Shown here piece by piece: positions 13,001 through 63,990 of a stretch of DNA of 64,000 nt. The position numbers and the translations under genes are program-made. Below the pieces are notes generated by a model, which was given only the letters and a program-made list of their open reading frames with translations, searched no databases and was not told where the DNA came from. The stretch is taken from the NCBI RefSeq assembly GCF_030345095.1, contig NZ_CP128360.1, positions 2,046,001 through 2,110,000 on the forward strand. The letters run 5' to 3'. Source of the DNA: Solwaraspora sp. WMMA2056. Its GTDB lineage: Bacteria > Actinomycetota > Actinomycetes > Mycobacteriales > Micromonosporaceae. The number at the start of each line of letters is the position of its first letter. Position 1 is the stretch's first letter.

Positions 13001-13311
13001 TGCGCCTCGGCTACGGCGGGCGACGTACCGCGCAGGTCGGTGACGTTCGGGTCGGCGACCGACCCGGGCGGCCGCACCACGACGCTCGGCCGCCCGTCGT
13101 GCTCAAGGACGGCGCGGCGCAGCGCCGGCTCACGGCGCAGCAGGCCACGCCACGCGGCGGCCAGCGCCGCCACGTCGAGCGGGCCGGTGAGCCGGTAGCG
13201 GCGGTACGTCCAGCCGATCGGCGCGTCCGGCAGCAGCCGGCTCAGGAACCACCAGCCGGCCCACCCGCCCTGCTCCGTCGTCGGCTCCGTGACGGACCCG
13301 AAGGTGTCCAC
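10039..13311 (-). CDS. NRPS module: condensation-like, adenylation, PCP
   Basis: This 1090-aa protein has three domains. A condensation-like domain (about 15-440) carries HAVAADG at 144-150 in place of HHxxxDG, so the second, catalytic His is Ala. The adenylation domain (about 460-980) has core motifs FTSGSTGRPKG, NVYGPTE, YRTGDLG and NAAGKLDRR, and HDPSLCEVF at the A4 site retains the Asp expected for amino-acid substrates. A C-terminal PCP has DTFFARGGHSLL. The GTG at 13311 has an excellent AAGGAGG site. SgcC1 is a lone A domain for beta-tyrosine; this protein is extended by C and PCP. It likely activates beta-tyrosine from the adjacent aminomutase. Two tandem repeats lie inside it (12668-12715, 10722-10763). 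No thioesterase is present. Confidence 0.88.
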   Translation of the reverse strand: MDTFGSVTEPTTEQGGWAGWWFLSRLLPDAPIGWTYRRYRLTGPLDVAALAAAWRGLLRREPALRRAVLEHDGRPSVVVRPPGSVADPNVTDLRGTSPAVAEAQLAAGIARELAEVTDLSRGEPARLRVFRCPGSRTEILLGLHAVAADGLAVDRLAAQLFHAYRAGPQAGADRLAISRPQAVADRLEVTSQGQAPGRADPSVGASADPSVGASAAGVPVLSLPTDRPRPAAPTWQAATVRFDWGTATSAALRSGCRATQADPATVLAAGYLTLLARHVGADRVGLTAATGPGAGVGTRHTGFVTVVADVHDAPTFRTLVDRVRTGFARAVADPRPAHQLVRASQVDRDPRRVPLCDAVLVVRDGTAPARMPGVTVREVPVEPSVTLADLTLTVDGTGPALTGQLTYRSELFAPATADGLLGQLRTLLLAGLSAPDTPVALLPLDDPADVPPPDVAVDGPRPAAPTHECIRRRTARDGARTAVAGPTATLTYQQLDRAATDVARLLPDVAGAAVAIRLSPGPQQIAATLGAWHAGASISWFSVDQAEERSRQMLATLRPAALLVDAAGDDELARWYRDVLGGRLLVVGDPADGPASAGPVRQSPVDGPAERAADDSVLRRPAYTAFTSGSTGRPKGVVQSHEALAQFVTWFADAFGLGPGSRVAQWVTPDHDPSLCEVFATLVAGAAVHTVPARIRVHPEKLVDWLVAERISFLQTVPSFARELLGAVRARTGRAGLPHLRWLVLMGERVPGGLVDALANALPDTALANVYGPTETIAATWHVLTPPVAGAVPIGRPIPGRTMLVVDEHDRVCPTGVVGQLVVRSRYVTPGYLGLADRSAFRPVVPSDPPGADAGAGAGAGAGGWYRTGDLGRRRFDGPLEFHGRQDLQIKLYGNRLELTEIEAALTELPTVTECAVVPVTDLDGLVTQVVALVVPRTAGATPGPWRAHLRRRFGAALARVSLVVHPGRLPRNAAGKLDRRRLRLPQQVLTDPPRAPRGEVEQALADIWTRLLGAPPRTDRDTFFARGGHSLLVPALAQLVRHRFDIDVSVADLYANPSLAGMSGLVTAARRPATSGAGPTVPAPTATRS
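10722..10763 (-). repeat. Hexanucleotide tandem repeat in the adenylation domain
   Basis: About seven CACCGG units, one interrupted by a T, encode an alternating Gly-Ala stretch (GADAGAGAGAGAGG) just before the YRTGDLG motif. This is an in-frame low-complexity insert that could vary in length by slippage. Confidence 0.9.
12668..12715 (-). repeat. 24-bp tandem duplication inside the NRPS gene
   Basis: Two exact 24-bp copies (12668-12691 and 12692-12715) encode a doubled ADPSVGAS-type octapeptide within the condensation-like part of the NRPS. The duplication is in frame and lies in a low-complexity loop. Confidence 0.9.
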
Positions 13312-13564
13312 AGTGACCTCCTTCGTTGCCGCCGGCGTGTGTGGTCCGCCAGATCCTGGCGGAGGTACCGGCACCGATCGTGGCACCGCAGCCTGACCTG
13401 CCGGATCTTCGACAGTGCGCGATGCCCAGTCGGGCGCAGCGCACGAGGGAAGGTGCGGCCGGGAGCACCCAGTTCGCACGATGAGGTGGCCGGCTGGCCC
13501 GTCGAGAGGGTCACCGGGCGGCGGTGCAGCGGCCGCAGGCAGGCGCGATGGAAGGACGACAGAC
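13312..13564. promoter_or_regulatory. Divergent promoter region between NRPS and PCP genes
   Basis: These 253 bp separate the minus-strand NRPS start and the plus-strand PCP start and must carry both promoters. I saw no convincing -10/-35 pair or operator. Confidence 0.5.
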
Positions 13565-13849
13565 GTGGCGGAGACAGGTAGTCGTGAGATCAACGACGCC
13601 CACCTGGCCGAACAGGTCGCCCGAATCTGGCGGGACGTGCTGGGAGTACCGGCCGGGTCGACGGACGTGACCTTCTTCGACCTGGGTGGACAGTCGATCG
13701 CGGCGGTACGCATCGCGGGACGTATCGAGGACGAACTGGGGATTCAGGTCGACGTCGGCCTGCTCTTCGAGGATTTGGACCTGGCCGCCTTCACCCGACA
13801 CGTCCGGGCGGCGGCGGGCCTGCCGGACACCGCGCCCACGACGGGCTGA
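13565..13849 (+). CDS. Free-standing peptidyl carrier protein (SgcC2-like)
   Basis: The 94-aa protein is a single carrier domain with the 4'-phosphopantetheine site TFFDLGGQSIAAVRI (Ser near residue 45). Type II PCPs such as SgcC2 carry beta-tyrosine while the hydroxylase and halogenase act on it. The GTG at 13565 is the only start that keeps the full domain without adding unrelated sequence. It heads a plus-strand operon with the O-methyltransferase (gap of a few bases), thymidylyltransferase and condensation enzyme. Because the NRPS also ends in a PCP, the cluster has two possible carrier sites. Confidence 0.9.
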   Translation: MAETGSREINDAHLAEQVARIWRDVLGVPAGSTDVTFFDLGGQSIAAVRIAGRIEDELGIQVDVGLLFEDLDLAAFTRHVRAAAGLPDTAPTTG

Positions 13850-13878
13850 CGGTGGGCCAGGCGACCAGGGGGGCTGCG

Positions 13879-14571
13879 GTGAACCGGCCCGACTGGACCG
13901 ACAGCAAACACCTGCCGATGAACCCCGCGCTGCGGCGCTATCTCGTGGACAACAGCACTCCCGCCCCCGAGGCCCTCGTCGACCTGGCCGCGCGTACCGC
14001 CGGTCTGGGCGACGCCGCCGGGATGATGGTGCCGACCGAGCAGGCCGCGCTGCTCACCCTGCTCGTCCGGTTGACCGGCGCCCGACGGGTCGTCGACGTG
14101 GGAACGTTCACCGGCGGTTCGGCGCTGGCCCTGGCCCTGGGCCTGCCCGGCGACGGTCAACTGATCACCTGCGACGTCACCCGGCAGTGGCTACCGCTGG
14201 CCCAGGAACACTGGGCCGCCGCCGGAGTCGCCGACCGGATCGACTTCCGCCTCGGCCCGGCCACCCGGACCCTGGCGGACCTGACCTCGGCACCACCGGT
14301 GGACCTCGTGTTCATCGACGCGGACAAGATGAACTACCCGGCGTACCACCGGTTGGCCGTGCCGCTGCTGCGACCCGGCGGCCTGCTGGTCGCCGACAAC
14401 GTGCTCCTCGACGGCTACGTCCTGGCCCCTGGGCTGGCACCCGAACCGTTGGCCCGCCGCTGCGCGCAGGTGCTGCGCGGGTTCAACGCGGCGCTGGCCG
14501 CCGACGATCGACTGGAGACGATGATGCTGCCGATCGCGGACGGCCTCACCATAGCCCGCCGAGTTCGATAG
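13879..14571 (+). CDS. SAM-dependent O-methyltransferase (catechol type)
   Basis: The 230-aa product has the class I cation-dependent O-methyltransferase pattern: motif I VVDVGTFTGGSALALAL, LITCDVTRQW, the metal-binding FIDADKMNY (Asp residues) and LLVADNVLLDG. Family members methylate catechols, so a likely substrate is the ring made dihydroxy by the SgcC-like hydroxylase. The GTG at 13879 follows AGGGGGG; a GTG at 13852, three bases after the PCP stop, would add nine residues and could be used through coupling. The gene is the second of the operon 13565-17123. Confidence 0.85.
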   Translation: MNRPDWTDSKHLPMNPALRRYLVDNSTPAPEALVDLAARTAGLGDAAGMMVPTEQAALLTLLVRLTGARRVVDVGTFTGGSALALALGLPGDGQLITCDVTRQWLPLAQEHWAAAGVADRIDFRLGPATRTLADLTSAPPVDLVFIDADKMNYPAYHRLAVPLLRPGGLLVADNVLLDGYVLAPGLAPEPLARRCAQVLRGFNAALAADDRLETMMLPIADGLTIARRVR

Positions 14572-49734: not shown

Positions 49735-50277
49735 ATGTCGATCGAAGACGCCGGACCAGACCACCGCCGCGACGACGACCTCACCCTCAAAGAGGAGCTC
49801 GACGTCGCCTGCGCGATCACCGCGTCGTTCCAGGCGAGCATCCAGCACGCCGACACCAAGGGAAGCATGCTCGCCGTCCTGGTGTCCGGCGTCGTCACGT
49901 TGCTCGTCACCCAGGCCGGACCGCTGCGCGCCACGCTCGGCGGAGCCGGACCCGCCGCCGTGCTCGTCGTCGTCCTGACCGTGCTGGTGGCCGCGTTGGC
50001 GGCGACCGGGCTGCACCTGGCCGCCGCGCTACGCCCCCGGATCACGCCGCCCGGCCCGACCAACCGGTTCGCCTTCCCGGCGATGGCCGGCACCGACCCG
50101 CCGCCTGCCGGCGGCACGAGGTCGGGGGACCTGCGGGCCGAGGCCTGGGCGCTCAACCGGCTGCTGGCCGAGATCGCGCTGACCAAGCACCGCCACATCG
50201 CCGCCGCGATCCGGGGCACGGTCCTGCTGGTCGTCGCCGGCCTGGCCAGCCTGGTCCTCAGCGCCGGCGCGGGCTGA
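49735..50277 (+). CDS. Pycsar-effector-like (PycTM/DUF5706) two-helix membrane protein
   Basis: The 180-aa protein has the layout of the Pycsar TM effector family. An N-terminal helix ends ASIQHADTKGSMLAVLVSG, containing the ADxKxxxLL signature and running into TM helix 1. TM helix 2 (PAAVLVVVLTVLVAALAATGLHLAAAL) is followed by the conserved RPR and FAFP, and a C-terminal amphipathic helix (LNRLLAEIALTKHRHIAAAIRG) leads into a last hydrophobic segment. In Pycsar defence, cyclic pyrimidine nucleotides trigger such proteins to damage the inner membrane. No cyclase is directly adjacent, but a conflict-type cyclase lies 7 kb away at 57509. It converges with and overlaps by 20 bp the Hsp70 gene. 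Family call from pattern, not from a search. Confidence 0.7.
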   Translation: MSIEDAGPDHRRDDDLTLKEELDVACAITASFQASIQHADTKGSMLAVLVSGVVTLLVTQAGPLRATLGGAGPAAVLVVVLTVLVAALAATGLHLAAALRPRITPPGPTNRFAFPAMAGTDPPPAGGTRSGDLRAEAWALNRLLAEIALTKHRHIAAAIRGTVLLVVAGLASLVLSAGAG

Positions 50278-52324
50278 CCTCGCCGGCCTGCGCCGACCTC
50301 GTCGTCGACTCGGGCAGTGCGGTGAACAGCACCGTGCCGTCCTGCCCGGCCGAGGCCAGCCGGCCGCCGCCGGGCGAGAACGCCACACCACTGACCCGTC
50401 CACCGTGCATGGTGGTGGTCAGCAGCTCCCCGGTGGCCGACCAGATCCGGGCCGTACCGTCGTCGCTGCCGGTCGCCACGAACCTGCCGTCGCGGCTGAA
50501 CGCGACACTGCGTACCCCGTCGTCGTGGCGCAACTCCTGCAGCAGCGCGCCGGTGTCGACCGACCAGAGCCGGCACCGGCCGTCGTAGCTCGCGGCGGCG
50601 AGGCGGCGGCCGGCGGCGTCGAACGCGAGCGCGTTCACCCAGTCGTCGTGCGGCAGCTCCCGGACGGTACGCGCAGTGAGCAGGTCCCAGACCCGGACCA
50701 GCCGGTCGGCGCAGCCGGTGGCGAGCAGCCGACCGTCCGGGCTGACCGCGACAGCCCGGACGAAGTGCGGGTGGGGCAGCTCGAACAGTTGGCGTCCGGT
50801 GACCGCGTCCGACACCCGGGCGGTACGGTCGTAGCTCGCCGTGACCAGTCGTCGCCCGTCCGGGCTGAACGCGACCGCGCTCACCCAGTCGGCGTGGTCG
50901 ACGACCACCAGACGTTCCCGGCGGACCGCGTTCCACACCCGGGCGGTGCCGTCGAGGCCACCGCTGGCCATCAGCTCACCGGTGGGGGAGAAGGCCACCG
51001 CGGTGACCACCGGTGGGTACGCCGTACCGGCCAGCAGGGGCGGCACGCCACTGCCGGTCGTCCGCCACTCGTGGCCGGCCGAGGCGAGGTCCTGCACCCG
51101 CACGTCGGCGACCGAGCCGAGCGCGATCCGGCTGCCTGTCGGGGCGAACGACACGGCGCTGAGCCGCTGCCCGGTGATGAGCCGCTGCGGGATCACCCCG
51201 TCGCTGGCCCGGTCGCCGGCCGGCCAGGCGTGGTGGGCCGGCATCCGGGCCAGGGCGACCGCGCCGCGCACCACGGTCAGGTCCGGTCGGTCCAGCCGCA
51301 GCACGATCCGGCCGGAGCGGCGGCTCAGCAGCCGACCCACCAGCGGGATCCGGCTGGAGCCGCCGACCGGCACGATCCGGTCGATCTCCGCCCAGCTCAG
51401 GCCCATGTCGTTGAGCATGCTCTCGGCGGTGTCGAGCGCACGGGTCAGATAGGGGCCGAGTAACCCGTCCAACGCGTCACGGGTCAGTTCGAACTCCTGT
51501 GGAACGTCCAGCTCGGACAGGAACTCGTGGGCCGACGGCGCACCGGAGAGCACGATCTTCATCCGTTCGACGTCCGCGCGCAGCAACTCCCGGCGGCGCA
51601 GCAGATCGGCATCGCCGGCCGGACCCCGCAGGAAGGCGGTCGCCTCGGGGAACTCGTCGGCGATGTGCCGCACGATCCGCCGGTCGAACCACCGGCCGCC
51701 GACGTCCGACAGGTGCCCGGGCGCGCCGAGCACCTCGAACCGGCGATTCGGCGTCGACCGGGCGACCGTACAGTCGAAGGTGCCGCCGCCCAGGTCGAAG
51801 ATCAGCGCCGTCATCGGGGCGCCGGTGGTGCCGGCGAAGACCTCGGCCGCCGCGGCGACCGGTTCGAAGACGATCCGTACGGTGTCCGGGTCGAACCCGG
51901 CCCGCACGGCGGCCGCCAGCATCCGGTCCCGCCTGCCCTGCTCCCAGGAGGCCGGTACGGTGATCACCACCGTCTCCGGATCCCCGGGGACCTGGTCACG
52001 GGCCAGGCCCCGCAGGAAACCGAGCACCTCGGCGGCCAGCTGTTCGGTGGTGAACGCACGGCCGCCGATCATGAACGGGACGTCGCTGCCGACGTCCGCC
52101 TTGAACTCGCTGCGGAAATGGCCCGGCCGTGAGCCCTTGGCCCGTTCCGCGGCGGTGCCGACCACGAGGTCGCCGGCGGCGGTCAGGAAGACCGAGGTGG
52201 GGACGCTCTCCTGCTGGCCGTACTCGCCCCGGGGATCCCGGCAGACCACGGTGGTGCCGTCGGCCCGGCCGACCGCGATGGCCGACCTGCAGGTGCCGAA
52301 GTCGACGCCGTAGACCGGCCCCAT
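50258..52324 (-). CDS. Hsp70-like ATPase fused to a seven-bladed WD40 propeller
   Basis: Residues 1-375 are an Hsp70/actin-fold ATPase: VYGVDFGTCRSAIAVG (phosphate 1), LIFDLGGGTFDCTVAR (phosphate 2), FEPVAAAAEVFAG and IVPVGGSSRIPLVGRLL. In place of the peptide-binding and lid domains, residues about 395-675 contain seven WD40-like repeats (for example VTAVAFSPTGELMASGG and VRSVAFSRDGRFVATGS), enough for a closed propeller. So the chaperone would bind a partner through the propeller, not a peptide groove. The ATG overlaps the stop of GTPase A (ATGA). It is the last gene of the dynamin/GrpE/Hsp70 operon. Confidence 0.9.
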   Translation of the reverse strand: MGPVYGVDFGTCRSAIAVGRADGTTVVCRDPRGEYGQQESVPTSVFLTAAGDLVVGTAAERAKGSRPGHFRSEFKADVGSDVPFMIGGRAFTTEQLAAEVLGFLRGLARDQVPGDPETVVITVPASWEQGRRDRMLAAAVRAGFDPDTVRIVFEPVAAAAEVFAGTTGAPMTALIFDLGGGTFDCTVARSTPNRRFEVLGAPGHLSDVGGRWFDRRIVRHIADEFPEATAFLRGPAGDADLLRRRELLRADVERMKIVLSGAPSAHEFLSELDVPQEFELTRDALDGLLGPYLTRALDTAESMLNDMGLSWAEIDRIVPVGGSSRIPLVGRLLSRRSGRIVLRLDRPDLTVVRGAVALARMPAHHAWPAGDRASDGVIPQRLITGQRLSAVSFAPTGSRIALGSVADVRVQDLASAGHEWRTTGSGVPPLLAGTAYPPVVTAVAFSPTGELMASGGLDGTARVWNAVRRERLVVVDHADWVSAVAFSPDGRRLVTASYDRTARVSDAVTGRQLFELPHPHFVRAVAVSPDGRLLATGCADRLVRVWDLLTARTVRELPHDDWVNALAFDAAGRRLAAASYDGRCRLWSVDTGALLQELRHDDGVRSVAFSRDGRFVATGSDDGTARIWSATGELLTTTMHGGRVSGVAFSPGGGRLASAGQDGTVLFTALPESTTRSAQAGEVSPRRR

Positions 52325-54222
52325 CAGTCGACCGGCCGATCGCCGGGCTGGTCGCCGAGGGTGTCGAGCTGCTCCCGCAGGACGTCCTGCTGCTCGATCA
52401 GCCGGCCGTAGAGGTCGAGGATCTCCTCCAGCGCGGCGATGCGTGCCGCCCGCTCCTGCTGGTTGTCCCGCAACGCGGCGGTGAGCGACTTCGCCCGATC
52501 CTGCAGCATCTCCCGCCGGGTCTGCCGGTGCGCCCGGCGGGCCTGCTCCAGACCCATCGCCAGATCCCGGCCCAGGGCACCGACACTGCGTTCGGCCGCG
52601 CGGCGGGCCGAGTCGAGCCGGGGCAGTACGTAGTCGCGCAGCTGGGCCACGGTGTCCCGGCGCTCGGTGAGCGCCTCCTGCCGCTCGTTCTCCTTCTTGC
52701 CGGCGAAGAAGCCGCCGATCTTGCCCACCAGCGCGCCGGCGGCGGCACCGAGGGCGGTGCCGACCACCGGGATGAACGAACCGGCGATCGCGCCGATCGC
52801 CGCGCCGGCGCCGCCGCCGATGACGACACCGCTGAACCGGGTACGCAGCCGGCTGAACGCGCTCCGCTCGGTCAGGGTCCGGATCGTCAACTCGTCGGTG
52901 GCCCCACGCGGACCACCGGGCAGGTCGTCGGCGGTAGCCGTGAACGCGTTGCCGAGCCCGTACTCCAGCGCGACCACGACGGCGGCGGCCCGCAGCTCGC
53001 GCCCGGCCTGGTCGGCGATGTCGACGGTCTGGCTGATGGTCTGCTTCGCCAACTTGGCGGGTTCGTCGGGCGGCGTCGGCCGGTTGGTGGCATCCCGGAA
53101 CGCGTCACCGAGGGCGTCGAAGTCGTCGGCCAGCCGCTCCAGCACCGGCCGGGTCTCCCGGTCGAACCGGTTGGCGAGCTCGGCCGCCTCGGTCGGCAGC
53201 GTCTTGTCGAGGTCCGCCAGCTCCTTTTTGATCTCATCGAGTTGACCGCTGATCCCGGTCGCGGACGACTCGGCGCGCAGCGCGGCGATCTGGTCCGCCA
53301 GCGGTTGCCGCAGCGTCTCGACCAGCTCCAGCCAGGTGTCGAGGACCGCTGCGACCCGGGCCCGCCCGCAGGTCTCCGCCAGGCCGTCCCACAGTTGCCG
53401 CTCCAGCAGCGGGAACCCCGACTCGGTGAGCAGCTCCGGATCGTCGTCGTCGCCGGCGTCGTGCTTGCGTGGCGCGGCGACGCCCACCACGGTCAGCTCG
53501 TCCACCGGCCGGCCCGCCAGTGTGGCGATCTTCTGGGCGGTCTCGGCGATCGCCTGCGCCGGGTCGACCACCATGTCGATGAAGGTGACCGCGGTGATCA
53601 CCGTCGGGCAGACCTCGATGGCGTCGGCGAGGAAGTCGAGCTCGTTCGTGCTCAGCCCTTCCTGCGCCGAGGCCACGAAGATCAGTGCGTCGGCGGAGAG
53701 GATCTCGGCCCGGGTGACCACGCCGTGGGCCGGGTTCATGCTGCCGATCCCGGGGGTGTCCACCAGGATCAGACCCTGCTTGAGCTCCTCCAGCGGCAGG
53801 CCGACCTCGATCCGGATCACGTTCTTCTCGTTGAACGGATTGCCCTGCTCGGTGGCGTAGTCACCGATCCGGTCCACCGCGATCTCGACCGGGTCCGGTA
53901 CGTCGTCCGGCCGCTCCATGGTCGAACCGAAGTGCACCCGGACCAGTTCGGTGGCCGAGTAGGACAACTCGATCACCACGGAGGTGGCGATCTGGACGTC
54001 GACCGGGAACAGGCCGGCGCGGTCGACCAGCGCGTTGAGCAGGGTGGACTTGCCCCGCTTGAACTCGCCACACACCACGACCCGGTACCGCTCCGCAGCG
54101 AGCCGGTGCCACGCCTGCTGGGCGGCCTCGTGCAGCGGCGCCGGCGCGCTGCGTTCGGTGAGATCGACGACGGTACGGAACTCCGACAGCACTTTATGGC
54201 GCAGGACGGACAACTGGTTCAC
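52324..54222 (-). CDS. Dynamin-like GTPase A
   Basis: The 632-aa protein is a bacterial dynamin-superfamily GTPase. G1 is CGEFKRGKSTLLNAL (Gly52-Thr60), G3 is LVDTPGIGS, followed by long helices of the stalk. A glycine-rich hydrophobic hairpin at about 465-500 (VVIGGGAGAAIGAIAGSF and GAAAGALVGKIGG) resembles the membrane-inserting paddle of bacterial dynamins such as IniA. A coiled coil with DRAKSLTAALRDNQQERAAR follows. It would bind and remodel membranes in a GTP-dependent way, probably as a heteromer with GTPase B. It sits 14 bp after the GrpE-like gene and overlaps the Hsp70 gene. Confidence 0.88.
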   Translation of the reverse strand: MNQLSVLRHKVLSEFRTVVDLTERSAPAPLHEAAQQAWHRLAAERYRVVVCGEFKRGKSTLLNALVDRAGLFPVDVQIATSVVIELSYSATELVRVHFGSTMERPDDVPDPVEIAVDRIGDYATEQGNPFNEKNVIRIEVGLPLEELKQGLILVDTPGIGSMNPAHGVVTRAEILSADALIFVASAQEGLSTNELDFLADAIEVCPTVITAVTFIDMVVDPAQAIAETAQKIATLAGRPVDELTVVGVAAPRKHDAGDDDDPELLTESGFPLLERQLWDGLAETCGRARVAAVLDTWLELVETLRQPLADQIAALRAESSATGISGQLDEIKKELADLDKTLPTEAAELANRFDRETRPVLERLADDFDALGDAFRDATNRPTPPDEPAKLAKQTISQTVDIADQAGRELRAAAVVVALEYGLGNAFTATADDLPGGPRGATDELTIRTLTERSAFSRLRTRFSGVVIGGGAGAAIGAIAGSFIPVVGTALGAAAGALVGKIGGFFAGKKENERQEALTERRDTVAQLRDYVLPRLDSARRAAERSVGALGRDLAMGLEQARRAHRQTRREMLQDRAKSLTAALRDNQQERAARIAALEEILDLYGRLIEQQDVLREQLDTLGDQPGDRPVD

Positions 54223-54236
54223 CGGGCCTCCTCGGC

Positions 54237-54821
54237 TCAGGTCGACGATGCGACAGCATCAGGACAGGTGGTGACGATCTGTTGGGTACGCAGCAGCGCG
54301 CCACGCCACTGGTAGCCCACCCGTACCGTCTCGGTGATCTCCTCGGCGGTGACCGGGCCCGACCGGCTCGCCACCACCTCGTGCCGGTCGAGGTCGACCG
54401 GCCCGGTGGTGTCGGCGATCGCGATGAGGCCGGCCGCTTCCAGTACGGCCGGTAGCTGCCGGTCGAGCCAGCGCAGCACGGCGACGGCCTGCCCCGGATC
54501 GACCGGCGTCGCCCGGCTGGTGAGATCGGCCAGCCGGTCGGCGATCCGGATGAGCTGCCACAACGTGTCCGGGACCTCCTCGACCACGGTCGGTTCCACC
54601 GGCATGTCCACCGGCGAAGGTGCCGCCGGCGGCGCGGCGCCGATCGCCTGCAGCGAAGGTGTCGCCGGCGCGGTGCCGATCGCCTGCGGCGCGGTGCCGA
54701 TCGCCTGCAGTACGGCGGACAGGTCGTCGACCTTGCGTTCGATCCGCAGCAGGTCCCGACGGACCGACCGGGGTCGCCACCGTGGTCTGCCCGCCCACCA
54801 GCGGGTCACGGTCGTGCGCAT
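54237..54821 (-). CDS. GrpE-like nucleotide-exchange factor
   Basis: The 194-aa protein starts with a basic segment and a short helix (RRDLLRIERKVDDLSAVLQ), followed by three imperfect QAIGTAP repeats. A helical part (VVEEVPDTLWQLIRIADRLADL ... LRWLDRQLPAVLEAAG) comes next. A C-terminal beta domain matches GrpE: VDLDRHEVVASRSG aligns with FDPxxHEAV, and ETVRVGYQWRGALLRTQQIVT with VxxGYxxxxRxLRPAxVxV. Housekeeping GrpE is longer in its coiled coil. Placement in one operon with the Hsp70-WD40 gene indicates a dedicated exchange factor; no J-domain protein is present. It overlaps GTPase B by 16 bp. Confidence 0.75.
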   Translation of the reverse strand: MRTTVTRWWAGRPRWRPRSVRRDLLRIERKVDDLSAVLQAIGTAPQAIGTAPATPSLQAIGAAPPAAPSPVDMPVEPTVVEEVPDTLWQLIRIADRLADLTSRATPVDPGQAVAVLRWLDRQLPAVLEAAGLIAIADTTGPVDLDRHEVVASRSGPVTAEEITETVRVGYQWRGALLRTQQIVTTCPDAVASST

Positions 54822-56521
54822 GAGGGGGCCTCCAAATCGTCGGACTCCGAGGGGGTGTCACCGGTCGTCGCCTCGGCCTCGATCCGCTCGAACGAGCGCA
54901 TCAACTGCCGGGCCACCGCCACCTCGGCGGCGTCGCGCATCGGGTCCTGCAACTGCCCGGCCCACCACCCGATGGCGGCGCGGGCGGCCTGCGCGATCTG
55001 TGCGGCGCTCGCGTCGGCCGCCAGCCCGACCCGGGACGCCGCGTCGGGCCCGTGCTCGCCGGTGACCTGCAGCAGCGTGGCGACCTCCGACTCGTCGAGC
55101 CCGAGTTCGCCGGTGTAGTGGCGGCGCAGGGTCCGCAGCTCCGCGAGACCGGGCAGCGCGTCGTGCAGCATCTCGAGCCGGGCGGCGACGTGGTCGACCT
55201 CCGGCGCCACCGGCACGCCGGCGCGTTGCGCGGCCAGGCGCAGCGCGAAGACCTCGGCGCGGGCCCGCTGCAGCACCCCGTCGACCTTGAGCAGCGTCGA
55301 ACGGTTGCCGAAGTGCCGGATCACCAGGCTGCGCAGCCGAGGAATCCCACTGTGGTCGAGCAGCCGCTGCCGTACCTGCGCCGGGTCGAGCCCGTCGTCG
55401 AGGTAGCGGCAGGCCAGCGCGGTGCCCCAGGCGCCGATCCGGACGACGAGGGCACGGCGCTGTGCGACCGGCAGCCGTACGCCGGGCAGCTGCTCCTTCG
55501 TCGCGAACCGTGCCGGATCCCGCAGCCGGCGGATGGCGGTCGCCGCGCCGCCGGCCCGCACCAGGTCGGCGAGCCACTCGAACTCGTGCTCGCCCAGCTG
55601 GGTCGCGCCCGCGGCGACGAGCCCGGCGATCGGCAGGACCGTGTAGAAGGTCCGGGCGGCCGGCGCCCAGTCGAGCAACCGGCGGGCCAGCTGGTCACCG
55701 ACGGCCAGCGGATCGTGATCGAGGGGGTCGGCGTCGCGGGCCGCCGTCCGGTCCGGCCAGTACTGGTCGCAGCGGCTGAGGACACCGAACGCCTTCAGCG
55801 GCGTCAACGAGGTGCCGGCGGTGCCGATGAACTGCGACAACGCCGCATGGTCGCTCTGATGCAGAGCCCGGCTGAACAGGTACAGCACCGCGTCGGCCTG
55901 GTCGAGCTCGGCGGCACTGTCGTGGTGCACGGCCGCCGCGTCCCGGCCACTGGCGGCGAGCGCCTGTTCCAGGGCGTACCGTTCGGAACCGTCGGCGATG
56001 TCACCGATGCCGAGAATGTCACGGGTGTTCGCCGCGTCCGTCACGTGCACACTGCCCAGCCCAGGCGTGTCCACCAGATGGAAACTGTGCAGCAACGAGT
56101 TGGGGATGCCGAACTCGACCTTTCGGATCAGTCGCAGGTGGTCCGCGCGACTGGAATCACGGGTGGTCAGTTCGTGGAACTGTTCCGGCGCGAATCCGAC
56201 AGATTCCGTTCCATCCTTGTAGTGCACGACGATCTGCGGCGTGTCGGCGTACCGGAACTCGCTGACCGTGAAGGTCAGCTCGGCCCGCCCCGTCGCGCTG
56301 ACCTCCTCACCGAGCAGCGCGTTGACCAATGTCGACTTTCCCCGTTTGATCTGCCCGACCACCGCCAGCCGCATGGGCTCGCCCAGTCGGGCACCGCCGC
56401 CACGCAGCATCCGCACCAGCGGGGCGAGCTGTTCACCACCGCGCGCCGCGACGTCCGCACAGGACGCCAGGACGTCGCCGACGTCGACGCCCGCTCCGCC
56501 CCGGACCTCCACGATGATCAC
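54806..56521 (-). CDS. Dynamin-like GTPase B
   Basis: The 571-aa protein has dynamin-type G motifs: VVGQIKRGKSTLVNALLG (G1), a Thr in ELTFTVSEFRY for G2, HLVDTPGLGSVHV (G3) and VLSRCDQYWPDR (G4). A predominantly helical 300-residue C-terminal part follows. It lacks the glycine-rich hydrophobic paddle seen in GTPase A, so A may anchor the pair in the membrane. Adjacent unlike pairs of dynamins also occur in mycobacterial iniA-iniC and streptomycete dynA-dynB. It is the first gene of the operon. Its ATG-proximal region faces the inverted repeat at 56601-56620. The start could also be a few codons downstream. Confidence 0.88.
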   Translation of the reverse strand: MIIVEVRGGAGVDVGDVLASCADVAARGGEQLAPLVRMLRGGGARLGEPMRLAVVGQIKRGKSTLVNALLGEEVSATGRAELTFTVSEFRYADTPQIVVHYKDGTESVGFAPEQFHELTTRDSSRADHLRLIRKVEFGIPNSLLHSFHLVDTPGLGSVHVTDAANTRDILGIGDIADGSERYALEQALAASGRDAAAVHHDSAAELDQADAVLYLFSRALHQSDHAALSQFIGTAGTSLTPLKAFGVLSRCDQYWPDRTAARDADPLDHDPLAVGDQLARRLLDWAPAARTFYTVLPIAGLVAAGATQLGEHEFEWLADLVRAGGAATAIRRLRDPARFATKEQLPGVRLPVAQRRALVVRIGAWGTALACRYLDDGLDPAQVRQRLLDHSGIPRLRSLVIRHFGNRSTLLKVDGVLQRARAEVFALRLAAQRAGVPVAPEVDHVAARLEMLHDALPGLAELRTLRRHYTGELGLDESEVATLLQVTGEHGPDAASRVGLAADASAAQIAQAARAAIGWWAGQLQDPMRDAAEVAVARQLMRSFERIEAEATTGDTPSESDDLEAPSCARP

Positions 56522-56600
56522 CGTCCTGCGCGACGAGGGCAGCGGCGACGACCGCTGCCGGGATTGGTGGCGATGATGCTAGGGACGCGGCCAGCCGCGC

Positions 56601-56620
56601 TTCCCATCACCGGATGGGAA
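56601..56620. promoter_or_regulatory. Perfect 8-4-8 inverted repeat, probable Crp/Fnr operator
   Basis: TTCCCATC-ACCG-GATGGGAA is a 20-bp palindrome with a 4-bp spacer in the divergent region between GTPase B (-) and the Crp/Fnr gene (+). It is about 80 bp from GTPase B. Its size and spacing suit a Crp/Fnr-family dimer. Confidence 0.6.
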
Positions 56621-56767
56621 GTGGTGAGCCGATTAGTGCGCCAATTGATACGAAGAGCGACCGCCGTCGACCACAAGGAGCGATGTCCCACTACTATGGA
56701 AGCGGTTACCGTCCTCATCGACAGCGGCACGATCCCGTGGCCGGCCGCCGCGACTGTGGGGCGTTCG

Positions 56768-57512
56768 ATGAATCATCCGCACCGACCCGTCGCGGTGGGA
56801 GCCACCATGTGGCGGGCCGGCACCCTGCTCCACTCACTTGCCGAAACCGACCGGGAGGCGCTCGCCAGCCTCGGCACCGAGCGGCGGTTCGCCGCCGGGG
56901 CGGCCCTGATGCTCGACGGCGACACCACCACCGATGCCTTCCTGGTGCTGGCCGGCTGTGTGAAGGTGCTGGGCGGGACCGCCGACGGACGCACCGTACT
57001 GCTGACGCTGCGCGGTGCCGGGGGACATGGTCGGTGAGCTCGCCGCGATGAACGGCACCCCTCGGGCGGCGTCGGTGTTCACCGCGACGAGCGTCCGGGC
57101 GCGGGTGATCTCCGCCCGGTCGCTGCGGACCTTCATCGCCGAACATCCGCAGGCCGCCACCGCGATCCACGCCTCGGTAGCGGAGAAGTTCCGGCGGGCG
57201 ACCCGGCACCGGGTCGACTTCACCACCGCGTCCACCCTGGTCCGTCTCGCGCTGGCGCTGGAGAACCTGGCCGACGTCTACGGCCGCGGCCACCCGTGCG
57301 GGATCCGGATCGAGGTGCCGCTGAGCCAGCCGGAGCTCGCCTCGCTCGTCGGCGTCTCCGACCCGAGCCTGCAACGGGCCTTCCGCACCCTGCGCCAACG
57401 CGGCGTGATCAGGACCGAGTACCGGCGGCAGATCGTGTGCCGCCCCGACCTGCTGCGGCGGCTGGTCGCCACCGGCACGCTGCCGCCAGCGGAAGGAGAC
57501 GACCTGCCGTGA
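56768..57512 (+). pseudogene. Crp/Fnr-family regulator with +1 frameshift in a G5 run
   Basis: The first frame encodes a cyclic-nucleotide-binding beta-roll: LLHSLAETDREALASLG, FAAGAALMLDGDTTTDAFLVLAGCVKVL, then LLTLRGAG followed by a stop at 57035-57037. The second frame continues the same protein, MVGELAAMNGTPRAASVFTA (phosphate-cassette region), the dimer helix, and a winged helix (LSQPELASLVGVSDPSLQRAFRTLRQRGVI). Removing one G from GGGGG at about 57008-57012 joins them into a ~247-aa protein of family length. The exact start is uncertain (ATG 56696, 56768 or 56807). The stop overlaps the cyclase start (GTGA). It may be a real inactivation, phase variation or a sequencing error. Confidence 0.8.
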
Positions 57513-58507
57513 CCCGACCGCAGACCCCGTACCGGTTGAGCATGTTCGTCGACGTCGAGGGCTACAGCAAGCGTTCCGTCCCCGGCCAGCTGGACGTGCA
57601 GGACCGGCTGCTGCGGGTGGTCCAGTTCGCCTGCGAACGGGCCAGGATCCGACGGCTGGACCGGGACAACGTGCAGGACCACGGCGACGGGCAGTTGGCG
57701 GTCCTGCCCGAGGACACCGATCTCGGGCAGGTCCTCCCGAGGCTGATCCTCGGGCTGCGACACGGGCTGTACGAGGCGAACGCCGAGCCCGGCGCGGCCG
57801 GCCGGATCCGGCTACGGGCCGCGTTCGCCGGTGGCAGCACCGGACGTGGTGCCACCGGCTTCGTCGGACAGGCGGTGATCCTCGCCGGTGACCTGGTCGG
57901 CTCGCAGGTCTTCAAGGACGTGTTCGCCGCGCCCCGCAACGCCGCCGCCGACCTGATCGTGATCGTCGACGACTTCCTCTACCGCGACGTCATCACGAGT
58001 CACCGCTACGACGGGGTGCCGGCGGACGCGTTCGACGCACAGCCGGTCGTCGCGCGCGCCAACGGTGCCGGCGAACCGCCGTCGAAGGTGCAGGTCTGGT
58101 ACCACCTGCCGGCGTCCGGCCCCGCCCCGGACCGACGGGCGGCCCGGACCGTCTGGCGCGGGGTCCGCGCGCCGCTGACGCTGGTCGGGCTCAGCAAGGT
58201 CGCGACCCGGGTACGCGAGAAGCTCGGCGTCGGCTCGGGCGGTCTTCCGGTCGACGCCGTCGGCGACGCCCTGGACTGGCTGCGCGACGACCAGCACGAT
58301 CTCGGCGACCTGGTCGCGCTCGGTGCCGCGATCGACCTGTCGGCGCTCGGGCACGGCGACGACGACCGCGACGACCGGACCGACGAGATGACCCCTGGCC
58401 CCGCCCCGGACCCGGCCGCCGGTCGCAGTCGCCCCTTCAGCGGCGGGTACCACGACGGGTTCGCCGGCCCGACCTACGACGATTCGGACGACTCCACCGG
58501 CCCCTGA
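57509..58507 (+). CDS. Class III nucleotidyl-cyclase-like protein (conflict-system type)
   Basis: The 332-aa protein has a divergent class III cyclase domain at residues 8-190. The two metal-binding aspartates are present: Asp15 in FVDVEGYSKR and Asp60 in DHGDGQLAVLP. At the position of the catalytic Asn and Arg (canonical AVNLAARL), this protein reads AVILAGDL (122-129), so both are replaced. GATGFVGQAVILAGDLV and LIVIVDDFLYRDVI match actinobacterial cyclase-like domains linked to biological-conflict genes. The C-terminal 140 residues are acidic and unstructured-looking. GTG 57509 overlaps the Crp/Fnr stop. It may make a cyclic nucleotide sensed by that regulator or by the PycTM-like protein, or may only bind nucleotides. 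Confidence 0.72.
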   Translation: MTRPQTPYRLSMFVDVEGYSKRSVPGQLDVQDRLLRVVQFACERARIRRLDRDNVQDHGDGQLAVLPEDTDLGQVLPRLILGLRHGLYEANAEPGAAGRIRLRAAFAGGSTGRGATGFVGQAVILAGDLVGSQVFKDVFAAPRNAAADLIVIVDDFLYRDVITSHRYDGVPADAFDAQPVVARANGAGEPPSKVQVWYHLPASGPAPDRRAARTVWRGVRAPLTLVGLSKVATRVREKLGVGSGGLPVDAVGDALDWLRDDQHDLGDLVALGAAIDLSALGHGDDDRDDRTDEMTPGPAPDPAAGRSRPFSGGYHDGFAGPTYDDSDDSTGP

Positions 58508-60555: not shown

Positions 60556-63500
60556 TTAGTACGGAGCGACGCCGGCGGCCCAGGACTTCGGCCAACTGAC
60601 GCGTAGTCCGGTGGCCGGGAGGTCGCCGAACTCCACACCGGCGAACGGGTCGGCGACGTAGCGTACCCGGTCGTGTTCCGGGCCCGCCGCGCTGACGAGG
60701 ACCATGGCGAGCCGGTAGTCAGGGGCGGCGTTGCGGCCGGTGACGATCTCGTTGTGGGTGACGTGGAAGTCGTCGGCACCCTCGATGCGGGCCTTCACCT
60801 CGATCCGGATGGACGAGCCCCCGTCGGCGGTGAGCGAGAGGATATCGTAGCCGGGGTTGGCGTACGGCTGTTCCTGTGGCACTCGGCCGAGGGCTCGTTC
60901 AGCGGCGAGGACCAGCTCGACGCCGCGTCGTTCGACCGCGTGGGTCTCCCGGGCGTGGATCGGAGCGTCCGCCGGTATCGCGTCGCCGACCATCGCGAGT
61001 GGCAGGACGAGGGCGGCCGTCATGATCTGCGGCGGCTTGATGATCGATTCGACCTGACGATCCAGCAGCGCGAGCCGTTCCGTACGACGTACCTGCAGCT
61101 CCTTGGCCTTGCGGAGCAGGCTGTCGGCGCTTTCTCTTGGTTTGACGCCGGACCGTTCCTTCGCCTGCGCGTCGGCTGCTTCCCGGTGTAGCCGGGCAGC
61201 TTCGTACGTCAGTCGCTGGTCGACCCGTTCCCGGGTCCGTTCGATCTCGGCGCGCCGTCGGTCGGCAACCTCGGTGAGGTAGCCGGCGAGCTGATGCTTG
61301 CTGATCCAGGCGCGGGCTTCGGACTCTGCGGTGGCGAGCCACCGCAGCTTCCGGGCATTCTCCACTGCGGGTGTCGGTGGTGCCGGTGCGCAGTCGAGAT
61401 ACGGCGCCGGCCCGGCCGGGGCGACTCGGCCGCTGGCGTCGACGTACGCGTAACTGAACCGCCGGGCGACCATCTCTCCGGTACCGTCGACGACCTCCTC
61501 GCTCACCCCGACCAGCACGGCCGGCTCCTCGACCTGCGGAGACACCAGGACGGTGCCCCGTTCGAGAACACCCCGCAGTTGCTGGAGGACGCGGTCGGCG
61601 ACGGCGTCGTGCAGCGGATGCCGGGGTGCCAGCAGGTCGGCCCGGGGCCGGCCGTCGACGTCGATCAGGTCGAGAGCGAAGGTGACCCGTTCATAGCGCG
61701 ACGAGACCGGTCCCCAACGGCTTGCGGCCTGGACGGCCGGCGGGACATGGCTGATCTCGTATCGGCCACGTTCCCGTCGGGCGAGTCGGCCGCCGAGATA
61801 CCCGAAGGCACGGCGGAAGGCCCACTCGATGTAGTGCGGTTGCAGCCGGCGGGCCCGAGCTTCCTCCATCTGCCTGCGCACCCGGGCCAGGTCGGCGTCG
61901 GACATGGCGTCGTGGGTCAGCGCCCGGTCCTCCAGCAGTTCCTTGAGACCGTGGGCAACCTTGTCGTCGATCACCTTCTCCATCCGGGCCCGGGTTTCCG
62001 GGCGGTCACCGTAACGGATGGCCTCGATGAGCAGGTCGCGCAGTGGCGTTTCGTCGAAAGCCGATCCGAGAACGTCGAAGACCTTGCCCCCGTAGGCTTT
62101 CCGTTGCTCCTCGACCTTCCACAGCAGCCGGGTGAAAACTTCCCCTTCGCGGGTGTTGGCGGCTACCAGGTTCCACAGCCGGCACACCTCGGTCTGCCCG
62201 ATCCGGTGCACCCGACCGAACCGTTGCTCGATACGGTTCGGGTTCCACGGCAGGTCGTAGTTGACGACCAGATGGGCCGCCTGCAGGTTGAGGCCCTCAC
62301 CCGCCGCGTCGGTGGCAAGCAGCACCTGACACGTGGGGCTCTTGGTGAATTCCTCGGTGACCGCGCGTCGATCGGCGCGTCCGACACCGCCGTGGATCGC
62401 GCGGACCGCGTCGGTCCGGCCGAAGAGCGAGGAGATCTTGCGGGACAGGTAGTCCAGGGTGTCGCGGTGTTCGGTGAAGATGATCAGCTTGCGGGGGCGG
62501 TCTGCTCCGGGACGGAGCAACTCGTTGTCCTGGAATATGCGGCGCAGCTCGACCCACTTGCGGTCGGTGTCCAGGTCGCGGACGTGCTGGGAGACCTTGA
62601 TCAGACCGGCCAGCTCGGCGAGTTCGGCGTCGAACTCTGCGATCGTGGCGGCCGTGGTGGCCGCATCGAGCAGCTCCTCCTCGATGTGTTCCATCTCGGC
62701 GGCGCTGTACTCGTCACCGTCCCAGTCGCCCCCGTCCACCGAGCGGAGCGAGTCGTGGGCAGGTCGGCCGCCGAGCAGGTCGTCCCGGCGCCGCCGCAGC
62801 CGATTGGCACGGCGCAGCAGAGACTGGTGGATCGCCTCCGGGCTGGAGGCGAGGCGGCGCTGAAGAACGGTGAGTGCGAATCCGACAGTGTGCCGGCGCT
62901 TGTCGTGCACACCCAGCCGGTCGGCCCGGTTCATACCCTCCCGTACATAGGTGGTGACCCGCTCGTACAGATCGCGTTCGTCCGGCGACAGATCGTAGGG
63001 CACCGTCTGGGCGATACGTTCGGGAAAGAGTGGCCTGCCGTCGAAAGTTAGTAAGTCCTCTTTGACCATTCGCCGCATCAGCCCGCTGGTGCTCGGATCG
63101 TCCACGCCGGCCTTGAACTTTCCTTCGAATCCGTCGCGTTCGAGCAGAGTGAGGAAGAGCTGAAAGTCCGCCTCCACGCCGGCATGCGGCGTGGCGGTCA
63201 TCAGCAGCAGGTGCCGGGTCCGGTCGCGTAGCCGCTCGCCGAGCTGGAACCGCCGCGTCTTGTCGACCTTGCCGCCGTAGTAGCGGGCACCCATCCGGTG
63301 CGCCTCGTCGACGACCACCAGGTCGAAGTGGGCGTCGTCGAGCTGTGCCGACAGGACCGGGTTGCGAGCGAGTTGATCCATCCGAGCGATCAACAGCGGG
63401 CGCTGGGCGAAGACAGTGGTGCCGTACGCCGCCTCGGCCAGATCCGGGGCGAGCAGCTCGAAGCGGAGGCCGAACTTGAAGAACAGCTCGTCCTGCCACT

Positions 63501-63990
63501 GCTCGACGAGGCCGCCGGGTGCCACGATCAGGCAGCTCTTCACGTCGTCGCGGAGAAGCAGCTCCTTGATGTAGAGGCCCGCCATGATGGTCTTGCCGGC
63601 ACCAGGGTCGTCGGCGAGCAGGAAACGTAGCGGGGTGCGGTCGAGCATTTCGCCGTACACGGCGCGAATCTGATGCGGCAGCGGCTGGACGTCACTGGTG
63701 GCCACGGCCAGCATCGGGTCGAACAGCCCAGCCAGCGAGATCCGTTGGACCTCGGCGACGAGCCGAAAGTCGTCGCCGTCGGCGTCGAATGGTCGGCTCC
63801 CCGCGTCCGATCGACGCAGCTTTGCCTCGTCGGCGCGGAACAGCATCCGTTGATCCAGCTTGCCGGCAGCGAGCCGGTAGGTCAGCTCCACAGCGTCGGC
63901 GCCCTGCGGCTGCGCGTAGATGACCTCTACGGTCTCGCCCGGAACGACACCGGTCACCCGCAGCCCGGACACCAGATCTTCCAGACGCAC
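60556..63990 (-). CDS. Large SNF2/RapA-like helicase with DUF3883-like C-terminus
   Basis: The 1144-aa protein has an SNF2-type helicase core. Motif I is LLADDPGAGKTIMAGL (about residue 125), motif II VVVDEAHRMG, and motif VI QRFGRVHRIGQTEVCRLWN. A coiled region (about 900-1000) is followed by a C-terminal DUF3883-like domain (GYDILSLTADGGSSIRIEVKARIEGADDF, with a nuclease-like E-x-K). The ADDPGAGKT variant and this tail occur in phage-defence helicases such as DISARM DrmD and BREX BrxHII. GTG 63990 gives the usual MRLEDLVSGLRVTGVVPGE start, 10 bp from the window edge. Partner methylase or DrmABC genes, if any, lie beyond 64000. Confidence 0.85.
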   Translation of the reverse strand: MRLEDLVSGLRVTGVVPGETVEVIYAQPQGADAVELTYRLAAGKLDQRMLFRADEAKLRRSDAGSRPFDADGDDFRLVAEVQRISLAGLFDPMLAVATSDVQPLPHQIRAVYGEMLDRTPLRFLLADDPGAGKTIMAGLYIKELLLRDDVKSCLIVAPGGLVEQWQDELFFKFGLRFELLAPDLAEAAYGTTVFAQRPLLIARMDQLARNPVLSAQLDDAHFDLVVVDEAHRMGARYYGGKVDKTRRFQLGERLRDRTRHLLLMTATPHAGVEADFQLFLTLLERDGFEGKFKAGVDDPSTSGLMRRMVKEDLLTFDGRPLFPERIAQTVPYDLSPDERDLYERVTTYVREGMNRADRLGVHDKRRHTVGFALTVLQRRLASSPEAIHQSLLRRANRLRRRRDDLLGGRPAHDSLRSVDGGDWDGDEYSAAEMEHIEEELLDAATTAATIAEFDAELAELAGLIKVSQHVRDLDTDRKWVELRRIFQDNELLRPGADRPRKLIIFTEHRDTLDYLSRKISSLFGRTDAVRAIHGGVGRADRRAVTEEFTKSPTCQVLLATDAAGEGLNLQAAHLVVNYDLPWNPNRIEQRFGRVHRIGQTEVCRLWNLVAANTREGEVFTRLLWKVEEQRKAYGGKVFDVLGSAFDETPLRDLLIEAIRYGDRPETRARMEKVIDDKVAHGLKELLEDRALTHDAMSDADLARVRRQMEEARARRLQPHYIEWAFRRAFGYLGGRLARRERGRYEISHVPPAVQAASRWGPVSSRYERVTFALDLIDVDGRPRADLLAPRHPLHDAVADRVLQQLRGVLERGTVLVSPQVEEPAVLVGVSEEVVDGTGEMVARRFSYAYVDASGRVAPAGPAPYLDCAPAPPTPAVENARKLRWLATAESEARAWISKHQLAGYLTEVADRRRAEIERTRERVDQRLTYEAARLHREAADAQAKERSGVKPRESADSLLRKAKELQVRRTERLALLDRQVESIIKPPQIMTAALVLPLAMVGDAIPADAPIHARETHAVERRGVELVLAAERALGRVPQEQPYANPGYDILSLTADGGSSIRIEVKARIEGADDFHVTHNEIVTGRNAAPDYRLAMVLVSAAGPEHDRVRYVADPFAGVEFGDLPATGLRVSWPKSWAAGVAPY

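Follow-up and report, generated by a model that had tools for sequence, protein, structure and literature searches.

Related systems and layout of the locus

Among the closest described relatives of the genes analysed here are the GAP1-N2 systems, which pair DO-GTPases with Hsp70 and GrpE and, in a subset, have an Hsp70 that lacks the peptide domain; in the available text of that report, DO-GTPase/GAP1-N2 neighbourhoods are predicted to be conflict systems and the word dynamin is absent (Kaur et al. 2020, PMC7159879). Pycsar, as defined in the available part of PMC11224242, consists of the PycC cyclase and PycTM. The window, a 64-kb stretch of the Solwaraspora sp. WMMA2056 genome, contains a minus-strand operon of four genes, encoding in order GTPB, a GrpE-like protein, GTPA and an Hsp70-WD40 protein, that is a real, conserved, dynamin-based variant of such GTPase-centred Hsp70/GrpE systems. 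The features, including those that border the operon, are:

49735..50277, plus strand: PycTM-like membrane protein (PADLOC PycTM, 9.9e-8), convergent with the Hsp70 gene, the two tails overlapping by 20 bp
50315..51172, minus strand: WD40 beta-propeller part of the Hsp70 gene, about residues 385-670 (Pfam WD40, 5.6e-58)
51230..52324, minus strand: Hsp70 ATPase (nucleotide-binding) domain, residues 1-365 of the fourth gene (Pfam HSP70, 1.3e-39)
52324..54222, minus strand: GTPA, IniA/BDLP-type dynamin-like protein, 632 aa (Pfam Dynamin_N, 1.5e-21)
54237..54821, minus strand: GrpE-like protein, 194 aa (Pfam GrpE 7.6e-4, below cut-off; hhalign; AF2 model; fold search)
54806..56521, minus strand: GTPB, divergent dynamin-like GTPase, 571 aa, the operon's first gene (Pfam Dynamin_N, 2.4e-13)
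56600..56621, no strand: perfect 9-bp inverted repeat CTTCCCATC-N4-GATGGGAAG, candidate operator between Crp and GTPB
56768..57512, plus strand, start approximate: Crp/Fnr-type regulator (Pfam HTH_Crp_2 5.9e-13 and cNMP_binding 2.3e-6, on the 3′ part)
57509..58507, plus strand: CYC, divergent class III nucleotide cyclase, 332 aa

An earlier note on this DNA had described four genes that overlap or nearly abut, and its positions, the 16-bp overlap of the GTPB and GrpE-like genes and the 14-bp gap between the GrpE-like and GTPA genes were reproduced. The ATGA overlap given there for GTPA and Hsp70 is in fact a single shared base (TGATG).

Two GTPases with an Hsp70 and a GrpE are a known theme of DO-GTPase conflict systems; here dynamins replace the DO-GTPases. 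Judged by the available text on those systems, the common ground comprises one or two paralogous GTPases, Hsp70, GrpE, a peptide-domain-less Hsp70 in a subset, frequency in actinobacteria, a link to membranes and variable modules. The window GTPases differ in being dynamins: neither GTPA nor GTPB has a match to the DO-GTPase domain at E≤1, PF19993 (DO-GTPase2) is absent from the genome, and no GAP1 was found among the 10 window proteins scanned. The earlier view that no function has been described for such a gene set is upheld for the dynamin version, no dynamin-Hsp70-GrpE operon being found in the literature searched, with subscription journals and preprints mostly outside its scope, but is qualified by the similar GTPase/Hsp70/GrpE set in Kaur et al. 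2020. Among 72,556 plasmid records, the sole match at 1e-20 was the Anabaena plasmid pANA01, whose window-type dynamin pair (profile E 3e-107 and 8e-131) is preceded on its own strand by two DO-GTPase genes, one recognised by Pfam (2.7e-15) and one sub-threshold. The pANA01 locus gave no Hsp70 or GrpE profile match. This arrangement ties window-type dynamin pairs to the DO-GTPase class of predicted conflict systems.

With iniBAC the window shares an actinobacterial dynamin pair, a full-length IniA-like GTPA and the Hsp70 that also accompanies ini-like loci; it differs in its GrpE, its propeller-tailed Hsp70 and its cyclase/Crp neighbourhood, and when a gene that we take to be IniB-like, from L019 (L and G numbers are our own labels), was used as query, the 20 kb surrounding the operon gave no labelled gene at E 1e-4. 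The DnaK-GrpE-DnaJ system likewise has an Hsp70 ATPase domain with catalytic residues and a GrpE to which the window protein is akin, whereas the operon's Hsp70 has no peptide-binding domain, no J protein is encoded nearby and the N-terminal helix of its GrpE is interrupted in a low-confidence model. GTPA also resembles the LeoA and LeoBC models of PADLOC (3.2e-20 and 2.1e-17); to our knowledge, LeoABC has neither Hsp70 nor GrpE. As far as the available definition of Pycsar extends, the window shares with it a class III cyclase fold, here a prediction, close to a gene for a PycTM-like membrane protein, but CYC is unmatched by PADLOC and a Crp regulator and a dynamin operon are added.

The two dynamin-like GTPases

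Both GTPases match Dynamin_N above the curated Pfam cut-off and the GrpE-like gene sits between them. When compared with solved structures, the GTPA family profile matched IniA (6j72, E 4.1e-42) over profile positions 14-628, that is with full-length dynamin architecture, and also BDLP (2j68, E 5.5e-28); a glycine-rich hydrophobic hairpin is located near residues 460-510 of GTPA. The GTPB family profile, searched against the PDB, matched the G domains of IniA and of 5owv_C, a GTP-binding protein that is presumably Cj-DLP2, at E about 1e-15. For a bacterial dynamin-like pair, GTP-driven membrane remodelling would be expected. The source genome has three dynamin pairs and two weaker single matches, and all three pairs have an Hsp70 gene within 10 kb. 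With 12 Hsp70 genes in 7.0 Mb (15 matches merged) this is improbable by chance, at about 4e-5 by an estimate made after the fact.

The Hsp70 ATPase domain and its variable tail

The ATPase domain extends over about 360 residues, with the best Pfam HSP70 stretch stopping at residue 358, and is followed by the WD40 part. The residues equivalent to D8, K70, E171, D194 and T199 are all present, in keeping with the retained ATPase that had been proposed, and these five positions are intact in all 19 Hsp70 domains of GrpE-bearing loci. The proposed replacement of the peptide-binding domain by seven WD40 repeats is also borne out. A DnaK peptide-binding domain query had no match in the window Hsp70 frame at E 1e-3, nor, at that threshold, in any of the 49 Hsp70-domain frames of 45 loci, with 5/5 DnaK-operon controls positive, and the WD40 part has six significant Pfam stretches, seven repeats being counted by eye; at 5.6e-58, this Pfam match also speaks against a C-terminus that is not a propeller.

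The tail is not constant. It is WD40-like, as in the window, in G003, G009, Actinokineospora, L065 and L098, and propeller-like in L096, but in Catellatospora, Glycomyces, Actinomadura, Nonomuraea, Symbioplanes, Frankia and S. alboflavus it carries hydrophobic helices, and in other Streptomyces it is just about 30-60 residues long. As the same ATPase domain carries membrane helices or such short tails in relatives, the idea of the WD40 propeller as the key or defining adaptor, put forward in the earlier note, was discarded. The WD40 part is an interchangeable tail, and the constant element is an ATPase domain without a peptide-binding domain, often accompanied by GrpE in the window-type clade. 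Two loci, L065 and L067, have two and three Hsp70-domain genes, respectively, beside a single dynamin pair.

That a GrpE is present without a J protein is consistent with the absence of J-domain genes from the 64-kb window; the genome has two, both elsewhere. Near dynamin pairs of the L020 type, L191 has a gene for a J-domain protein (12821-14266; Pfam DnaJ 1.2e-15) that starts 1 kb after GTPA, and L198 (at about 4600) and L199 (at about 270) have a J-domain motif, by motif alone. A fuller chaperone set beside the dynamin pair is therefore possible in some lineages.

The GrpE-like protein

Residues 80-190 of the GrpE-like protein match the helical-bundle and beta-domain part of GrpE. Profile-profile comparison with GrpE by hhalign gave 97.4 % and E 1.2e-11, and in a fold search with the AF2 model GrpE alone ranks top. 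The assignment of this gene to GrpE is, on profile and model together, a firm prediction, and a GrpE fold of helical bundle and beta domain is predicted for the protein. A chance match is ruled out by the profile and fold comparisons, and the suggestion of a GrpE-like factor survives the profile searches that could have shown it to be unrelated to GrpE. At 19.6 bits the window protein does not reach the curated Pfam GrpE cut-off of 25.8; the GrpE located between another dynamin pair, in L191, does so at 31.4 bits. A PDB sequence search with six GrpE-like rows gave no separation (GrpE 0.088, aldolase 0.085). In the model, from a shallow six-row alignment, helix 17-43 lies apart from helix 85-103 with a low-confidence linker between them.

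In the GrpE-DnaK complex of M. tuberculosis, R169 of GrpE forms a salt bridge with E236 of DnaK, according to the available part of PMC10803776. R169 maps to R167 of the window protein, which is at least 90 % conserved over 19 rows. On the Hsp70 side, the E236 equivalent is an alanine in the window protein and Y257 is also not kept; an acidic residue is found at the E236 position in 15/19 GrpE-bearing and 9/16 ini-like loci, a separation too poor for these DnaK-side contacts to serve as a test of GrpE pairing.

Conservation across genomes

Four protein profiles were used to map 49 loci, picked by similarity and not at random, 32 from the window clade and 17 ini-like or L020-type controls. Scanning the genome collection with GTPA alone gave no matches, and an alignment scan with GTPB gave 80 loci, of which L077-L107 (31) and later L132 were annotated; 26 of the 31 were counted, as L092, L094, L095 and L097 are duplicates and L101 was omitted, and L108-L131 and L133-L156 stand outside the counts. 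An Hsp70 ATPase domain is present in 29/32 window-clade and 16/17 control loci (45/49 overall) and a GrpE-like gene in 19/32 window-clade loci. The GrpE-like family HMM, which can miss divergent copies, found none in the 17 controls; as GrpE does lie between the GTPases of L020-type loci in other genomes, these 17 should not be taken as a class that generally lacks GrpE.

In 16 of the 19 GrpE-bearing loci the genes run GTPB-GrpE-GTPA-Hsp70 along a single strand, and the four genes are thus a conserved unit in other genomes, the gene-order check that the earlier note had called for. These 19 loci are from seven actinobacterial families (Streptomycetaceae, Thermomonosporaceae, Streptosporangiaceae, Pseudonocardiaceae, Frankiaceae, Micromonosporaceae and Mycobacteriaceae) and one acidobacterial MAG (L096) that has all four genes in a different order. 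GrpE was not found in 13 of the 32 clade loci, some of them truncated or partial and one in the near relative G009, which argues that it is dispensable in some. In the GTPB tree, window-type and ini-like groups are split with 100/100 support. Pairwise distances of the four proteins over 18 loci are correlated at r 0.90-0.97, with 0/2000 permutations as high, values that common descent inflates. The distribution is patchy, with an orthologue in one of six other genomes of the genus.

An independent search that started from GrpE, with the Pfam model in 31 genomes, provided 17 places for inspection, 16 of 18 weaker ones and one strong second copy. In nine of these, GrpE is flanked by the two GTPases of a dynamin pair (L195 and L204 by Pfam match alone), so this arrangement extends past the window's clade. 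Elsewhere GrpE is beside a dynamin pair with Hsp70 (L192), beside an Hsp70 domain with no dynamins (L193, L196, L200, L202 and L207) or near neither (L205 and L206). In L193, L196 and L200, the GrpE-domain gene is immediately 5′ of the Hsp70-domain gene, and these could be DO-GTPase-type or other systems.

Several loci have additional genes. In Frankia torreyi (L106, 14175-16099), two insertion-like genes, by their look presumably an IS607-type insertion, separate GTPA from Hsp70. C39-type peptidase-like proteins recur by dynamin pairs (L063 11006-11695 and L247 4298-5119 by Pfam; L064, L078-L080 and L085 by eye), as does a protein of 180-250 aa with a G-I-G-W/L-P-like motif, these two types of companion being found in Streptomyces, Micromonosporaceae and Anabaena.

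Cyclase, Crp regulator and PycTM-like protein

New in this analysis are the genes that border the operon, which encode a class III cyclase of a rare kind, a Crp regulator and a membrane protein resembling PycTM. CYC belongs to the class III cyclases by its predicted fold, and both of the aspartates that we take to be metal ligands are present; no PADLOC model, PycC included, matched it at E 0.1. It was seen in 10 of the 32 clade loci, about a third, and all four copies detected at E 1e-5 in G000, G003 and G009 adjoin a dynamin pair. Of seven cyclase places without dynamins that were fetched, five carry a PycTM-like gene no more than about 3 kb away, two of these five having helped to build the model. 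The PycTM effector of Pycsar has its counterpart in the window, with an orthologue in G003 (PADLOC, 7.4e-8), but operon and PycTM occur together in only three loci, the window, L021 and L057, the last with a weak PycTM match (1.3e-3).

The Crp gene is directly upstream of CYC and divergent from the operon. Its frame is broken once near 57.0 kb in this assembly, by sequencing error or real decay, and is open in the G003 counterpart. Allowing up to 3 mismatches, the 8-bp-arm core of the candidate operator matches once in the 64-kb window, against an expectation of 0.13. The repeat is also present in the G003 locus, which is near-identical and so not independent support, but did not turn up in L057 (where other palindromes occur), L060, L077, L081, L210 or L211. 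In Streptomyces phaeofaciens (L132, 8182-10923), a cyclase and a Crp-like gene lie beside a short GTPB match, apparently a decayed operon. Two kb past CYC, the window encodes an SNF2-type helicase (60556-63990, minus strand) that matches PADLOC HmaA nearly full length, at 1245 bits.

A proposed role for the operon

We propose, giving it an even chance, that a dedicated Hsp70-type ATPase switch, reset by GrpE, runs the heterotypic dynamin pair. GTPA, IniA-like and with its hydrophobic hairpin, would form a membrane-bound hetero-assembly with GTPB. In one nucleotide state the Hsp70 ATPase domain would hold this assembly, or its site on the membrane, by direct contact, and in the other it would release it, control being directed from the ATPase cycle to the dynamin polymer, and the GrpE protein would reset the Hsp70 through ADP/ATP exchange. 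The C-terminal module, a propeller here and membrane helices in relatives, would position the switch. In this genome, a cyclic nucleotide from the divergent cyclase, read by the Crp regulator and the PycTM-like membrane protein, probably controls the operon, which would then respond to damage of the envelope or to infection by phage. As the benefit, defence against phage and repair under envelope stress have about the same likelihood.

If the operon served in phage defence or abortive infection, its membrane effectors would be the dynamin pair and the PycTM-like protein, the cyclase would make an alarm nucleotide and Hsp70-GrpE would act as a threshold device, a reading that we regard as possible and hold tentatively. 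Kaur et al. predict such a conflict role for DO-GTPase systems in the available text (PMC7159879), the pANA01 dynamin pair follows one DO-GTPase gene and a second, sub-threshold one, cyclase-PycTM pairs also occur without dynamins, the operon is patchy within the genus, and an HmaA-like helicase lies beyond the cyclase. The lack of a PADLOC match for CYC and the rarity of operon and PycTM together argue against it, as does the fact that ini relatives are known, from the available part of PMC6715688, for their response to cell-wall drugs.

A second reading, equally possible and held just as tentatively, is an iniBAC-like envelope-stress tolerance operon, in which the dynamins would repair or pinch the membrane under wall damage and Hsp70 would be a stress-linked scaffold. 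GTPA is IniA-like over its full length, the ini-type locus of the same genome (L019) combines its putative IniB-like gene with a dynamin pair and with an Hsp70 domain that bears a membrane helix, and nearly all ini-like loci have an Hsp70 domain. Against this, the surroundings of the window operon yielded no relative of the IniB-like gene or of the LuxR-type regulator of L019, the GTPB tree parts the two groups with full support, and the family HMM, which can miss divergent copies, detected no GrpE-like gene in ini-like loci. That the genes are merely co-transcribed, the GrpE-like protein serving the housekeeping DnaK and Hsp70-WD40 being a separate signalling protein, with neither touching the dynamins, is improbable: the DnaK contact residues are not kept in the operon Hsp70 and some relatives retain Hsp70 and dynamins without GrpE, but GrpE between two GTPases recurs in distant locus types, Hsp70 domains are present at almost all dynamin loci, and Hsp70 genes lie near all three pairs of the genome, which by the post hoc estimate is unlikely by chance.

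Extended to its surroundings, the proposed GrpE-reset switch would belong to a bacterial machine for innate immunity or membrane rescue. A cyclic-nucleotide alarm, made up of the class III cyclase, Crp and the PycTM-like effector, would be linked to the dynamin pair, and an Hsp70 without a substrate domain, together with a GrpE of its own, would time the assembly and disassembly of that pair on the membrane, acting as a clutch that is driven by ATP, grips a GTP-driven polymer and dispenses with J protein and with protein folding; we put this forward as a rather doubtful, speculative whole.

In the usual description, GTP sets the timing of the dynamin cycle. If the proposed switch exists, the Hsp70 ATPase and GrpE would add a second clock, driven by ATP, to a dynamin machine, and an Hsp70 ATPase/exchange-factor pair would serve as a switch outside folding. 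It also gives a testable explanation for the frequency with which Hsp70 genes adjoin actinobacterial dynamin pairs, those of ini-like loci included, and it connects dynamins with cyclase/PycTM signalling and, in one cyanobacterium, with DO-GTPase conflict systems. The related operons across actinobacteria suggest a chaperone-type motor dedicated to a membrane machine.
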